5,088 bases of DNA, from positions 1 to 5,088 of the forward strand of contig JALSIF010000051.1 of NCBI GenBank assembly GCA_026981635.1, in the 5' to 3' direction. The stretch's first letter is position 1. Each line of letters opens with the position of its first letter. Below, piece after piece: positions 1 through 5,088 of the stretch. Below the pieces are notes generated by a model, which ran no database searches, had not been told where the DNA came from, and saw only the letters and a list, made by a program, of their open reading frames with translations. This DNA comes from JALSIF01 sp026981635 [NCBI: bacterium] (GTDB taxonomy: Bacteria > 4484-113 > JALSIF01). The position numbers were made by a program, and so were the translations under genes.

Positions 1-1998
1 GGAGATGAACTGGGGGCGGGTGGACTGGAGGTCCAGCACCCCGATGACCTCCTCCTTGGTGCCCAGGGGGATGGCCACCTCGCTTACGTGCCTGACCCCA
101 CCGGGGACGTCCTCCACGAAGCGGGGATCCAGGCGCACGTCATGGGAGATGATGGTCTTGCCCTGCTCGTAGGCACGGCCCACCAGCCCCGCCCCGAAGG
201 GTATTTCGGTGCGGGCACCGGGGGTGTCCTTGTAGAGACCCTCGCGGGTGTGGACCCAGAGAACCTTGCGCTCCCGGTCGGCAAACAGGATGGTCACATT
301 GGAGAAGTTGAACAGTCGCTGGATGTCACGGGCTGCCGCCTGGACCAGCTCATCTACCTGGAGGCTCTGCAGGGAGCGCTCGCTGAACTGGTTGATGAGG
401 TCAAAGAGCAGGTTGTTCTTGCGCTCCTGGTCAAACAGCTGGGCGTTACGCAGGGCGTTGGTGAAGAGGGTGGCCACCTGGATCATGAACTCCACCTCCT
501 GCTTGCCGAAGCTGCTCGGCTTGGTGGATTCCAGGATGAGCACACCCAGCTCCTCCTTGCGGGAGCGCAGGGCGATGATCATGAGCTCGCGGCTCTCGGG
601 GGAGGTGAAGCGATCAAAGCGCTCCTCAAACCAGCTCCCGCTCTCGTCGCGATAGGAGATGAGGTAGGGGTTTTCGCTCTTGAGGAACTGCCAGAGGTGC
701 TCATAGTCGCGCCCCAGGATTTCCCCCTCCTGCCAGTTGGACAGCCCCAAAAGGTCGGAGACCTGGGAGATGCGCAGGGTGCGCCGGTCCACCTGGGTGG
801 CAAGCACCATCACCTCGGCGTGGACCATCCGCCTGACCTGCTGGGCGGTGACCCGGAAGATGTCCTCCAGCTCCAGGGACTCGTTGATGAGCTGGCTGAT
901 CTCGTTGATGGCGGTAATCAGCTTGTTTGACTCCAGGGTCTCCTGCTCCAGGCGCTTGCGCTGGGTGATGTCACGCAGCATGACGATGACCAGGTCGTCC
1001 TCCACGTGGCGCAGAAGGCCGAGACTGACTGCCACCTCCACCGTGGTTCCGTCGGGGCGCACCAGCTCCATGTCCAGGTGGATGGGGCGCTGGTACTGGT
1101 GGAGGTTCTTGAGCCAGTAGTGGAGGCGGCGGCGGTCGTGGTCATCAAACAGGGAGAGGGGGCTCATGCCCACCAGCTGAAAGCGGGCCAGGGTGGTGAG
1201 GTCCTCGGCCTGCTCGTTCACCTCCACGATCTCCAGCCGCTCGCGGGAGATGAGGATGATCGCCTCGGTAGCCTGTTCCACCACCGAGCGGTAGCGCTGC
1301 TCCCGGCGTGCCACCTCTTCCAGGCGGTGGCGAAGCTCTGCCACCTGGGCATTCTCGGCAGTGGTCTCGTTGATCAGCATGCCGATGGCGATTCCCCGGA
1401 CCGCCGCGTCGTGGGTGAGGAAGAAGCGCACCCGGAAGTAGCGCTGTCCCTGGGGGGTGGCAAGGGCAAAGTCGTAGTAGCGCTCCCGGGTCTCACCCCC
1501 CTCGTCCAGGGAGGCCACATAGTGGACGAAGAGCTGGTAGAGCTCGGGAGAAAGGACCCGGCGGGCTTCCATCCCCCGCAGGCGGAGCTGGCCCAGCTTG
1601 TCCACCACCTCCCGGCTCACGTAGGGGCGAAGGGGAAGCGTCTTGCTGTGGCGGAGGATGGTGCCGTCGCGGGAGAGGACCAGGTAGGAGCTCACCGCCC
1701 GCTCCAGGGCGGCCTCCATGAACTCGCCCTTGCGCAGGTAGCCCTTGAGGGACTCGCCGGCAAGACGCAGGGTGAGCAGGTGGGCGAGAAAGATCAGACC
1801 GGCCACCCCCACCCCGGACCAGAAGCTCCAACTTCCGCTGAGAAAGCCGTAGTAGCCCACCGCAAGGGAAACGATCAGGCCGAAGAACCAGAGCCAGGGA
1901 CGGAGGCGGACAAACCTGGTGATGAGCTTGAGTTCAACCGGCAGGCTTCCCTCACCGCCTGATGCCGGCAGCTTGCCCAGGTTTCCCCTTACCTCCAT
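1..1998 (-). CDS. Membrane-anchored PAS/GAF sensor protein (3' partial, output domain missing)
   Basis: The frame is open for 666 codons from ATG 1998 to the window edge with no stop, so the C-terminus is outside. Residues 1-34 form a cytoplasmic-type tail. Two hydrophobic segments (about 35-53 and 57-77), joined by a very short loop, form a membrane hairpin. A divergent PAS-like region follows (about 90-205), then a charged helical linker (about 208-235) and a clearer PAS domain (about 236-345, starting YRSVVEQATEAIILI and ending in the typical RDITQRKRLEQE). Two GAF domains come next (about 360-520 and 530-666), the second with the family-typical IPFGAGLVGRAYEQGKTI and GVLDLQSTRP. The start is supported by GGAAGGA 9 nt upstream. 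The ATG overlaps the last 10 nt of glpX, suggesting translational coupling. By family knowledge the output could be a histidine kinase, GGDEF, or PP2C-type phosphatase domain. No such domain is visible, so the activity and the ligand are unknown. Confidence 0.88.
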   Translation of the reverse strand, partial: MEVRGNLGKLPASGGEGSLPVELKLITRFVRLRPWLWFFGLIVSLAVGYYGFLSGSWSFWSGVGVAGLIFLAHLLTLRLAGESLKGYLRKGEFMEAALERAVSSYLVLSRDGTILRHSKTLPLRPYVSREVVDKLGQLRLRGMEARRVLSPELYQLFVHYVASLDEGGETRERYYDFALATPQGQRYFRVRFFLTHDAAVRGIAIGMLINETTAENAQVAELRHRLEEVARREQRYRSVVEQATEAIILISRERLEIVEVNEQAEDLTTLARFQLVGMSPLSLFDDHDRRRLHYWLKNLHQYQRPIHLDMELVRPDGTTVEVAVSLGLLRHVEDDLVIVMLRDITQRKRLEQETLESNKLITAINEISQLINESLELEDIFRVTAQQVRRMVHAEVMVLATQVDRRTLRISQVSDLLGLSNWQEGEILGRDYEHLWQFLKSENPYLISYRDESGSWFEERFDRFTSPESRELMIIALRSRKEELGVLILESTKPSSFGKQEVEFMIQVATLFTNALRNAQLFDQERKNNLLFDLINQFSERSLQSLQVDELVQAAARDIQRLFNFSNVTILFADRERKVLWVHTREGLYKDTPGARTEIPFGAGLVGRAYEQGKTIISHDVRLDPRFVEDVPGGVRHVSEVAIPLGTKEEVIGVLDLQSTRPQFIS

Positions 1999-3730: not shown

Positions 3731-3741
3731 CTAGCGGCTAG
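3731..3741. repeat. Short inverted repeat at the pyrK-deoC junction
   Basis: CTAGCGGCTAG is a perfect 5-bp inverted repeat with a one-base centre. It covers the pyrK stop codon and lies just upstream of the -10-like box before deoC. The single-base centre makes an RNA hairpin unlikely, so a protein-binding site is more plausible if it functions at all; it could also be chance. Confidence 0.3.
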
Positions 3742-4535
3742 ACCAGGGCGGCAAAGTCAACCTCACGCAGATCCATAACCGGCCCCTCCACGCAGAGACG
3801 GCGAGGGTAGCGTCCTCCGTCGCTTCTCAGGGGCAGGTTGCACCCGTTGCACACCCCGATGGCACAGGCCATGGGCAGCTCCAGGCTCACCTGGCAGGGA
3901 AGCCCCTCGGGTAGCAGGTCAGCCAGAGCGCTAAGCATGGGGTTTGGGCCGCAGGCGTAGACCATCTGCCACTCCCCCTGCTCCAGCACCTCAGGAAGCA
4001 GGTCGGTTATGTATCCTCGGTGGCCCAGTGTGCCATCCTCGCTGGCCATGCGTGCCACCACCCCGAACTCCTCCAGCAGGCCGGGCACCAAGTCCCTGCC
4101 ACTGCGTGCTCCAAACAGGAACTCAACCCTGAGCTGGGGGGAGCTGTGGCGCATGCGGTCGTAGAGCATGAGCAGCGGTGCCACCCCCACCCCGCCAGCT
4201 ACCATGATGGCCCGCGAAACCCCCTCATGGGTGAAGGGTGTGCCCAGGGGGTAGATGGCCGGCAGCAGCTCACCCTCCCGGCGCTGGCAGAGCTGCCCGG
4301 TCCCCTCCCCCACCACCCGGTAGTAGATGGCCGCCTGGTGGGTGTCGGGCTGGTAGTCCAGGAAGGAGTAGGGCCGCCACAGCATGCGGTAGTCGCCAGG
4401 GGGGTCAACCTTGAGGTGGAGAAAGCTGCCGGGGAGGATCGGCTGATGGGGGGGAGGGGTTAGCCTTCCCCAGATGACGAAGTGCTCCGGGGCCAGCTCC
4501 ACCTGGCGGAGAACCTGAAAGAAGCCATACTGCAC
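3738..4535 (-). CDS. pyrK: Dihydroorotate dehydrogenase electron-transfer subunit (PyrK)
   Basis: PyrK passes electrons from dihydroorotate oxidation in PyrD to NAD+, using FAD and a [2Fe-2S] cluster, in cytosolic pyrimidine synthesis. The longest frame starts at GTG 4556 (272 aa; numbering here follows it). I prefer GTG 4535 (265 aa), because family N-termini begin near YGFFQVLRQ and a TATAAT box sits 7 nt upstream; neither GTG has a good Shine-Dalgarno. Motifs in order are the flavin-binding RPYS (61-64), VGEGT (82-86), PLGTPF (103-108), the nucleotide-binding VAGGVGVAPLL (119-129), GARSGRDL (149-156), YACGPNPML (200-208), and the cluster ligands C231, C236, C239 and C255 (C-x4-C-x2-C-x15-C). 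The usual partner pyrD is not adjacent: the next downstream gene is deoC and the upstream gene is divergent. Other ferredoxin-NADP reductase-like flavoproteins share the fold, but the C-terminal LELPMACAIGVCNGC and CVEGPVMDL favour PyrK. Confidence 0.9.
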   Translation of the reverse strand: MQYGFFQVLRQVELAPEHFVIWGRLTPPPHQPILPGSFLHLKVDPPGDYRMLWRPYSFLDYQPDTHQAAIYYRVVGEGTGQLCQRREGELLPAIYPLGTPFTHEGVSRAIMVAGGVGVAPLLMLYDRMRHSSPQLRVEFLFGARSGRDLVPGLLEEFGVVARMASEDGTLGHRGYITDLLPEVLEQGEWQMVYACGPNPMLSALADLLPEGLPCQVSLELPMACAIGVCNGCNLPLRSDGGRYPRRLCVEGPVMDLREVDFAALV

Positions 4536-4542
4536 CGCAGGG

Positions 4543-4548
4543 ATTATA
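4543..4548 (-). promoter_or_regulatory. -10 box of a likely leaderless pyrK promoter
   Basis: The minus strand reads TATAAT, a perfect -10 hexamer, followed by 7 nt (CCCTGCG) and then GTG 4535. Transcription would be expected to begin at or within a base or two of that GTG, giving a leaderless message. No TTGACA-like -35 is seen at 16-18 nt upstream. If translation instead began at GTG 4556 the hexamer would lie inside the gene. Confidence 0.5.
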
Positions 4549-4585
4549 GGTGGCACCCTACCGCAGGCTGGGGCAGGGGTGCCTC

Positions 4586-4593
4586 GGGGGAGG
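4586..4593 (+). promoter_or_regulatory. Ribosome-binding site of the membrane protein gene
   Basis: GGGGGAGG is followed by 6 nt and then ATG 4600. It is the strongest Shine-Dalgarno match in the divergent spacer and fixes the start of the partial membrane gene. Its last two bases overlap the parS-like palindrome. Confidence 0.7.
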
Positions 4594-4607
4594 TTTCACA
4601 TGAAACA
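4592..4607. promoter_or_regulatory. parS-like palindrome (possible ParB site or operator)
   Basis: The 16-mer GGTTTCACATGAAACA contains a perfect 6-bp inverted repeat, GTTTCA/TGAAAC, around a central CA. It matches the widely conserved ParB-binding consensus TGTTTCACGTGAAACA at 14 of 16 positions, differing at the first base and at one central base. It lies in the divergent spacer and overlaps the end of the ribosome-binding site and the start codon of the plus-strand membrane gene. A bound protein here could also repress that gene, so a local operator is an alternative reading. The palindrome is directly visible; its function is inferred. Confidence 0.5.
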
Positions 4608-5088
4608 CCGGCGCGGGCCATATACTCACCTGCCAGTGGAGCGGCTAAGGGCGGGAAAGGAGTGGCTCTCCGGAGCGCTTGAGCTGACCGGCTATTTCTG
4701 GCGCTACTGGTTCAGGCCCCCCCTGCTTCCGGTGCTGCTCATCGTGGTGGTGATGGTGGAGTTCTTCCTGGTGATCCGCTCCTCCTCCCCTCTGACGGTA
4801 AAGACCCTGCTCATGGTTGTTGCCATCGGGGCTCTGCTCATGCCCATTGGCATAAGCCAGCCCTTCCCCTCTCCTCTGGCCCGCTCGCGGAGGGACCTGG
4901 AGGAGTTCTTCGCCGCCTGCCGCTACCTGCCCAGCCAGGTTCTCTTCGCCATGACCTCAAGCGCCCTGCTTCCCCTCCTGGGTGTGGCGGTGGGGGGGCT
5001 TTTGATCCCCTTCCTCTGGTGGGGGGCGGGCTTCTTTGAGCCGGTCCCCTTTGACCACCGCTTCTACGTCTCTCCCCGCTTCCACCCC
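4600..5088 (+). CDS. Unrecognised multi-pass membrane protein (3' partial)
   Basis: The frame is open for 163 codons from ATG 4600 to the window edge, so only the N-terminal part is seen. A strong ribosome-binding site, GGGGGAGG, ends 6 nt before the ATG. Residues 1-38 are basic and aromatic (MKHRRGPYTHLPVERL, then GYFWRYWFRP), suggesting a cytoplasmic or interfacial N-terminus. Hydrophobic segments follow at about 41-60 (PLLPVLLIVVVMVEFFLVI), 66-86 (TVKTLLMVVAIGALLMPIG) and 113-145 (a long stretch ending LLIPFLWWGAGFF), with a polar, charged loop at about 91-110 (ARSRRDLEEFFAACR). I do not recognise a family; a transporter permease component is possible but unsupported. Codon use looks like that of the neighbouring genes. 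It is transcribed away from pyrK, and its start codon lies inside a parS-like palindrome. Confidence 0.8.
   Translation, partial: MKHRRGPYTHLPVERLRAGKEWLSGALELTGYFWRYWFRPPLLPVLLIVVVMVEFFLVIRSSSPLTVKTLLMVVAIGALLMPIGISQPFPSPLARSRRDLEEFFAACRYLPSQVLFAMTSSALLPLLGVAVGGLLIPFLWWGAGFFEPVPFDHRFYVSPRFHP

Follow-up and report, generated by a model that had tools for sequence, protein, structure and literature searches.

The window considered here, that is, the whole stretch of DNA analysed, is a complete contig (C51) of 5,088 bases. It contains two divergently read genes and, between them and over the start of one of them, a palindrome resembling parS. The features of the window on which the analysis depends are the following:

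1-163, strand not assigned: overlap of the window start with the end of contig C295 (163 bases, 1 mismatch, first 126 exact)
3738-4556, minus strand: divergent pyrK-like gene, with Pfam DHODB_Fe-S_bind and NAD_binding_1 over cut-off
4589-4593, plus strand: Shine-Dalgarno-like GGAGG, sharing bases 4592-4593 with site 1, with a 6-nt spacer to the ATG
4592-4607, strand not assigned: parS-like site 1, GGTTTCACATGAAACA, core palindrome 4593-4606
4600-5088, plus strand: membrane protein 1, ATG at 4600 and first 163 codons, continuing on contig C134 (L056:2408-3274, minus strand)
4943-5088, strand not assigned: overlap of the window end with contig C134 (146 bases, 3 mismatches at the outer edge, last 126 exact)

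Of the NCBIfam models, those for PyrK score best on the minus-strand gene, but they remain below their own cut-offs. This gene begins at 4556, the gap on its divergent side is 43 bp, and site 1 lies in and over that gap. The start region of the membrane gene reads GGAGG (4589-4593), TTTCAC and ATG (4600-4602), with the ATG inside site 1, which confirms the first-pass annotation in its description of a palindrome overlapping the ribosome-binding site and ATG of a gene beside pyrK. A promoter scan of 4480-4720 found none. Our literature searches turned up no parS described as overlying a start codon, which is weak evidence, and the exact cores TTTCATGTGAAAC or TTTCACATGAAAC were not found there.

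In ParABS systems parS is the loading site of ParB dimers, which spread from it as clamps along the neighbouring DNA, help SMC to load and are moved by ParA, with the outcome that the stretch of chromosome carrying parS is segregated early. The core of site 1 (4593-4606) reads GTTTCA-CA-TGAAAC, in which GTTTCA and TGAAAC form perfectly complementary inverted arms on either side of CA. Compared with the parS consensus TGTTTCACGTGAAACA, GGTTTCACATGAAACA agrees at 14 of 16 positions over its full length and at 13 of 14 in the core, which places it within two mismatches of the palindromic parS; the differences are T1G (4592) and G9A (4600), the latter being the sole change within the 14-bp core. 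Direct reading of 4592-4607 therefore bears out the 6-2-6 palindrome and the 14 of 16 matches that had been claimed for it. Within the window site 1 is the only match to parS at up to three mismatches, where shuffled sequences predict 0.01. We also carried out the genome scan at up to two mismatches that had been proposed as a check, covering 1,745,230 bases (1.745 Mb) in 317 contigs of an 85% complete genome. It returned a single place, site 1 itself, against an expected 0.07 (0.067) under a first-order Markov model built from 35,433 bases, namely six of the 317 contigs or about 2% of the genome. The exact core GTTTCANNTGAAAC occurs once in the genome. At up to three mismatches there were two places, with 1.28 expected and one found for the reversed control pattern.

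A palindrome in this position could have arisen by chance from a Shine-Dalgarno sequence, an ATG and a Lys-AAA codon, since the start codon supplies a T and a G of the site and the Shine-Dalgarno sequence supplies its first G. However, exact GTTTCANNTGAAAC is expected only 0.022 times per genome. If 1,700 starts are assumed and the TG of each start codon is taken as fixed, the expected number of such palindromes around them is still only 0.0003. That another parS variant, rare in its own right, lies 2.48 kb away further counts against coincidence. We thus consider a chance origin improbable. Taken by itself, site 1 could still be an accident, though an unlikely one. Since the genome count at up to three mismatches is not above chance, it is the position of the second site that decides, and proximity is the argument.

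This second site, GGTTTCACGTGGAACC, is the genome's other match to parS at up to three mismatches and lies on contig C134 (L056:1129-1144, core L056:1130-1143). It matches TGTTTCACGTGAAACA at 13 of 16 positions and at 13 of 14 in the core, and is one outer letter short of the two-mismatch limit for the 16-bp sequence. Its core GTTTCACGTGGAAC, which reads GTTCCACGTGAAAC on the other strand, is also the core of the parS within B. subtilis parB, according to the excerpted text of PMC4333373; exact GTTCCACGTGAAAC is expected 0.003 times per genome. The usual CACGTG centre of parS is present in site 2 and is replaced by CACATG in site 1.

Contig C134 can be placed next to the window by the 146-base overlap at positions 4943-5088. 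The frame of membrane gene 1 stays open across this overlap, and the final 48 residues of this frame within the window are encoded identically at the far end of C134, as a protein search revealed. The exact overlaps of 126 bases at both ends of the window suggest an assembly graph built on 127-base words. With the numbering of the window carried on by computation across the C134 overlap (joined coordinates), the features run as follows:

4600-5811, plus strand: membrane protein 1, inferred length 403 aa
5837-7075, same strand (L056:1144-2382): membrane protein 2, 412 aa
7076-7089: site 2
7095-7865, strand opposite to the membrane genes (L056:354-1124): XRE/S24 regulator

By way of the contig overlap, site 1 and site 2 are 2,483 bp apart and bracket a two-gene membrane operon. 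Given one site, a second of this kind would fall by chance within 2.5 kb of it with a probability of about 0.004. The sites are thus few and clustered, as parS sites are, with two places at up to three mismatches lying 2,483 bp from each other in the 85% complete genome. Site 2 follows directly on the stop codon of membrane gene 2, occupying 14 of the 19 bp between the convergent genes.

The gene on the far side of site 2 encodes a LexA-like S24 peptidase in which an XRE-type HTH replaces the LexA DNA-binding domain, and is convergent with the membrane operon. That the two palindromes are operators of another dimeric repressor, for example this XRE/S24 protein, controlling the membrane operon, has in its favour that site 1 lies over the start of the operon and that the regulator gene adjoins site 2. 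But at site 2, flanked by two convergent gene ends, an operator would have no promoter to block, and both cores match parS and not an arbitrary motif. The absence of a third such palindrome from the 85% complete genome also means that there is none before the XRE/S24 gene itself, which counts against a repressor of this kind, and we regard it as very improbable. The location of site 2 between convergent ends likewise favours partition over an operator as the function common to both sites.

We also considered by synteny whether this region might be a former parAB locus, as the XRE/S24 protein gave BLAST matches of 32-34% to proteins beside parB in two relatives (G003 and G006). Since those proteins are LexA (LexA_DNA_bind and Peptidase_S24), whereas ours combines an XRE-type HTH with Peptidase_S24, this idea was dropped; judged from domain composition, the likeness would at most be that of the peptidase domain.

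The two membrane proteins are adjacent multi-helix proteins of about 400 aa each, with no family or relative found in the searches made. Neither has a Pfam match over cut-off or an NCBIfam match, and the product of the gene at 4600 has strongly hydrophobic segments, as expected from its initial description as an unrecognised membrane protein. For the part of membrane protein 1 within the window, a search of a collection of genome contigs gave 44 candidate stretches of which none was confirmed, and a search of nine relatives of the same class gave nothing better than E 0.09. Membrane protein 2 had no relatives in plasmids, and its AlphaFold2 model, computed without an alignment, has a mean pLDDT of 51.6. 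The likeness of the two proteins to each other is unconvincing (E 0.76, in a comparison limited to 288 residues from the C-terminus of protein 1).

A Soj-type ParA is encoded in this genome at C73:3790-4494 (E 4.6e-84), directly after the GidB/RsmG (rsmG) gene. ParB was not found in the 85% complete genome by ParB_N, TIGR00180 or a profile of eight ParBs of the class; the first two were positive in control genomes, and the class profile was run without a positive control. By comparison, ParB is present in 8 of the 9 class relatives. In 6 of these 8 (G001, G002, G004, G005, G007 and G008) parB follows parA immediately, with a frame that either overlaps the ParA match or starts within about 70 bases of its end, while for G003 and G006 there was no ParA homologue in the DNA fetched around parB. 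The bacterium's own ParA is closest to those of G007 and G008 (53-54%). Contig C73 is 4,494 bases long and ends inside parA. Since it stops just before the usual place of parB, the missing parB is best read as a gap, and its absence is probably due to the assembly. The only DnaA match in the genome is to the C-terminal part of the protein (model positions 278-437), cut by the end of contig C140. The dnaA fragment and parA are thus on short contigs, both other than that of the window and without a link to it.

We compared the sites with nine other genomes of the class, none of the ten, our own included, being in one piece. Allowing one mismatch, GTTTCANNTGAAAC had 54 sites in the ten genomes as opposed to 31 for the reversed control, so that many of these one-mismatch matches are background. 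A much clearer result was obtained with the perfect CACGTG-centred core GTTTCACGTGAAAC, which has seven sites in six of the nine relatives, where about 0.1 would be expected over 25.1 Mb with equal bases. It occurs twice in G001, the two perfect sites being 187 bp apart, and once each in G002, G004, G005, G007 and G008. The 14-mer of site 2, GTTCCACGTGAAAC, is also present in G005, G007 and G008, there 37-46 bp from a perfect GTTTCACGTGAAAC. These parS pairs, each made up of a perfect site and a GTTCC variant 37-46 bp apart, belong to three genomes of one family (L058:8858-8908, L059:9975-10034 and L060:9956-10015).

Exact arms around a non-CG centre occur once in our own genome (CA) and at four sites in three of the nine relatives (AT in G005 and G007; CC and GT in G002), with about 1.4 expected given equal bases. 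These sites in the relatives show no sign of function and so lend the chance explanation some weight. Because exact arms with other centres can be background, site 1 alone is weak and weighs less than site 2. The T1G difference means little, since the outer letters of the 16-mer vary within the class. Lack of conservation in related genomes had been named beforehand as a finding that would speak against the site, and as regards its place conservation fails: in none of the nine relatives does the contig with the best PyrK match have a site within one mismatch, the best PyrK match of G001 being weak (E 5e-4). The parS sites of the relatives likewise lie beside differing genes; that of G004 is inside the mnmG frame (Pfam GIDA) and that of G002 is inside its homologue.

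Residues R173 and G201 of Caulobacter ParB contact parS, and Noc has Q and R, respectively, at these positions, as described in the excerpted part of PMC7383237. When aligned to chain 6t1f, which we took to be numbered ten lower than in that paper, all eight class ParBs carry R and G at those places. The same alignment shows substitutions at three other contact positions in the ParBs of G003 and G006 (K171R, S172G and R204V), and these two genomes have no CACGTG-centred site within one mismatch. Since contact residues differ in G003 and G006, the unseen ParB of our bacterium could differ too. At loci L071 and L074 of these two relatives parB is next to the gene for LexA and to a frame of SDR type, perhaps with a different parS.

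The annotation had also allowed for binding by a Noc-like protein. Noc is a ParB paralogue, and its binding site (NBS, TATTTCCCGGGAAATA) is like site 1 a 16-bp palindrome. However, the two differ at 6 of 16 positions, a ParB_N family search of this 85% complete genome at E 0.001 gave no match, and the eight class ParBs have R and G and not the Q and R of Noc. This proposal was therefore unsupported, and a Noc-binding site is in our judgement hardly credible.

Considering all of these results, we think it quite likely that site 1 belongs to a genuine pair of chromosomal parS sites serving the ParABS system of this bacterium. The identity of the palindrome as parS, as originally put forward, is well supported by the second parS-like site 2.48 kb away, by the cores found in the class and by the Soj-type ParA. 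With chromosomal parS sites (B. subtilis consensus TGTTNCACGTGAAACA, as listed in the table of PMC7022226) the pair shares the 14-bp core palindrome and the occurrence of two close sites, and with chromosomal ParABS systems the genome shares a Soj-type ParA adjoining rsmG. The differences are that site 1 has CACATG for CACGTG at its centre and overlaps a ribosome-binding site and start codon, and that parB is not seen in this assembly. The type of site is well known, and it is the merging with a ribosome-binding site and start codon that is unusual. The sequences, their rarity, the closeness of the two sites, the link through overlapping contig ends and the ParA are observed, whereas we infer the existence of the ParB, its binding and function, and the use of the start codon.

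In the mechanism that we propose, site 2 would be the stronger loading site for ParB and site 1 the weaker, and ParB from both would cover the membrane operon that they enclose. Canonical parS contains GTG-AAA, a legal start, and the G9A transition would make of it ATG-AAA, the presumed start of the membrane gene, while the first G of site 1 would complete the GGAGG ribosome-binding site. Site 2 bears the same outer G without a need for ribosome binding. The parS may have been taken over as a gene start, or the start region may have grown from a parS; the order could be either. Since G9A alters the CACGTG centre, weaker binding of ParB is expected at site 1, which probably binds it less well than site 2 does.

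How much such a change costs may depend on the organism. In P. aeruginosa, ParB binds all ten predicted parS, six of which have two mismatches, but the CACGTG centre matters for binding and its alteration lowers affinity, so far as the excerpt of PMC4368675 shows. This favours another explanation of site 1, as a dead or dying parS relic that has turned wholly into a translation start, leaving only site 2 to bind ParB. However, all 12 arm bases of site 1 are intact, and an unselected relic need not keep them. Moreover, the parS consensus of S. coelicolor given in the table of PMC7022226 has the non-CG centre CACCTG, so that tolerance at the centre varies and CACGTG does not define parS everywhere. 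We therefore judge a relic to be rather unlikely, though it is to be taken seriously.

On the reading of site 1 as a functional parS, a role in regulating the gene that it overlaps may also be considered. According to the excerpt of PMC5521831, P. aeruginosa ParB represses genes by way of the intergenic parS3 and parS4, not the intragenic parS1 and parS2. Our site resembles parS3 and parS4 in its intergenic position next to the starts of genes; at those sites ParB represses adjacent promoters (same excerpt of PMC5521831), whereas ours lies over the start codon itself. The genes beside the Spo0J sites of B. subtilis were unchanged when Spo0J was lost, as stated in the available part of PMC7022226. 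By analogy with P. aeruginosa, a role of site 1 as a ParB operator over the membrane gene is possible. A further extension, in which site 1 would be centromere site, translation start and operator at once, ParB occupancy would set the expression of this envelope operon, and the G-to-A change would be a selected compromise between ParB binding and initiation at ATG, we hold to be doubtful.

For an uncultured bacterium whose class is represented here by ten genomes, all of them in several pieces, the two sites are candidates for partition sites. Site 1 would be a natural case of a centromere site and a translation start on the same bases. It allows a test of how far the centre of parS can drift, and of what the loading of ParB at a gene start does to expression, on which B. 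subtilis (PMC7022226) and P. aeruginosa (PMC5521831) differ in the excerpts of these papers.

The left end of the window, which overlaps contig C295, gave a minor observation. The gene content of C295 comprises clpP, tig, an Ldh/Mdh-type gene and a SpoIIE-type phosphatase. Window positions 1-1998 together with L173:8282-9730 encode a long PAS/GAF sensor ending in a SpoIIE phosphatase and HATPase_c_2, the gene being split across the two contigs.
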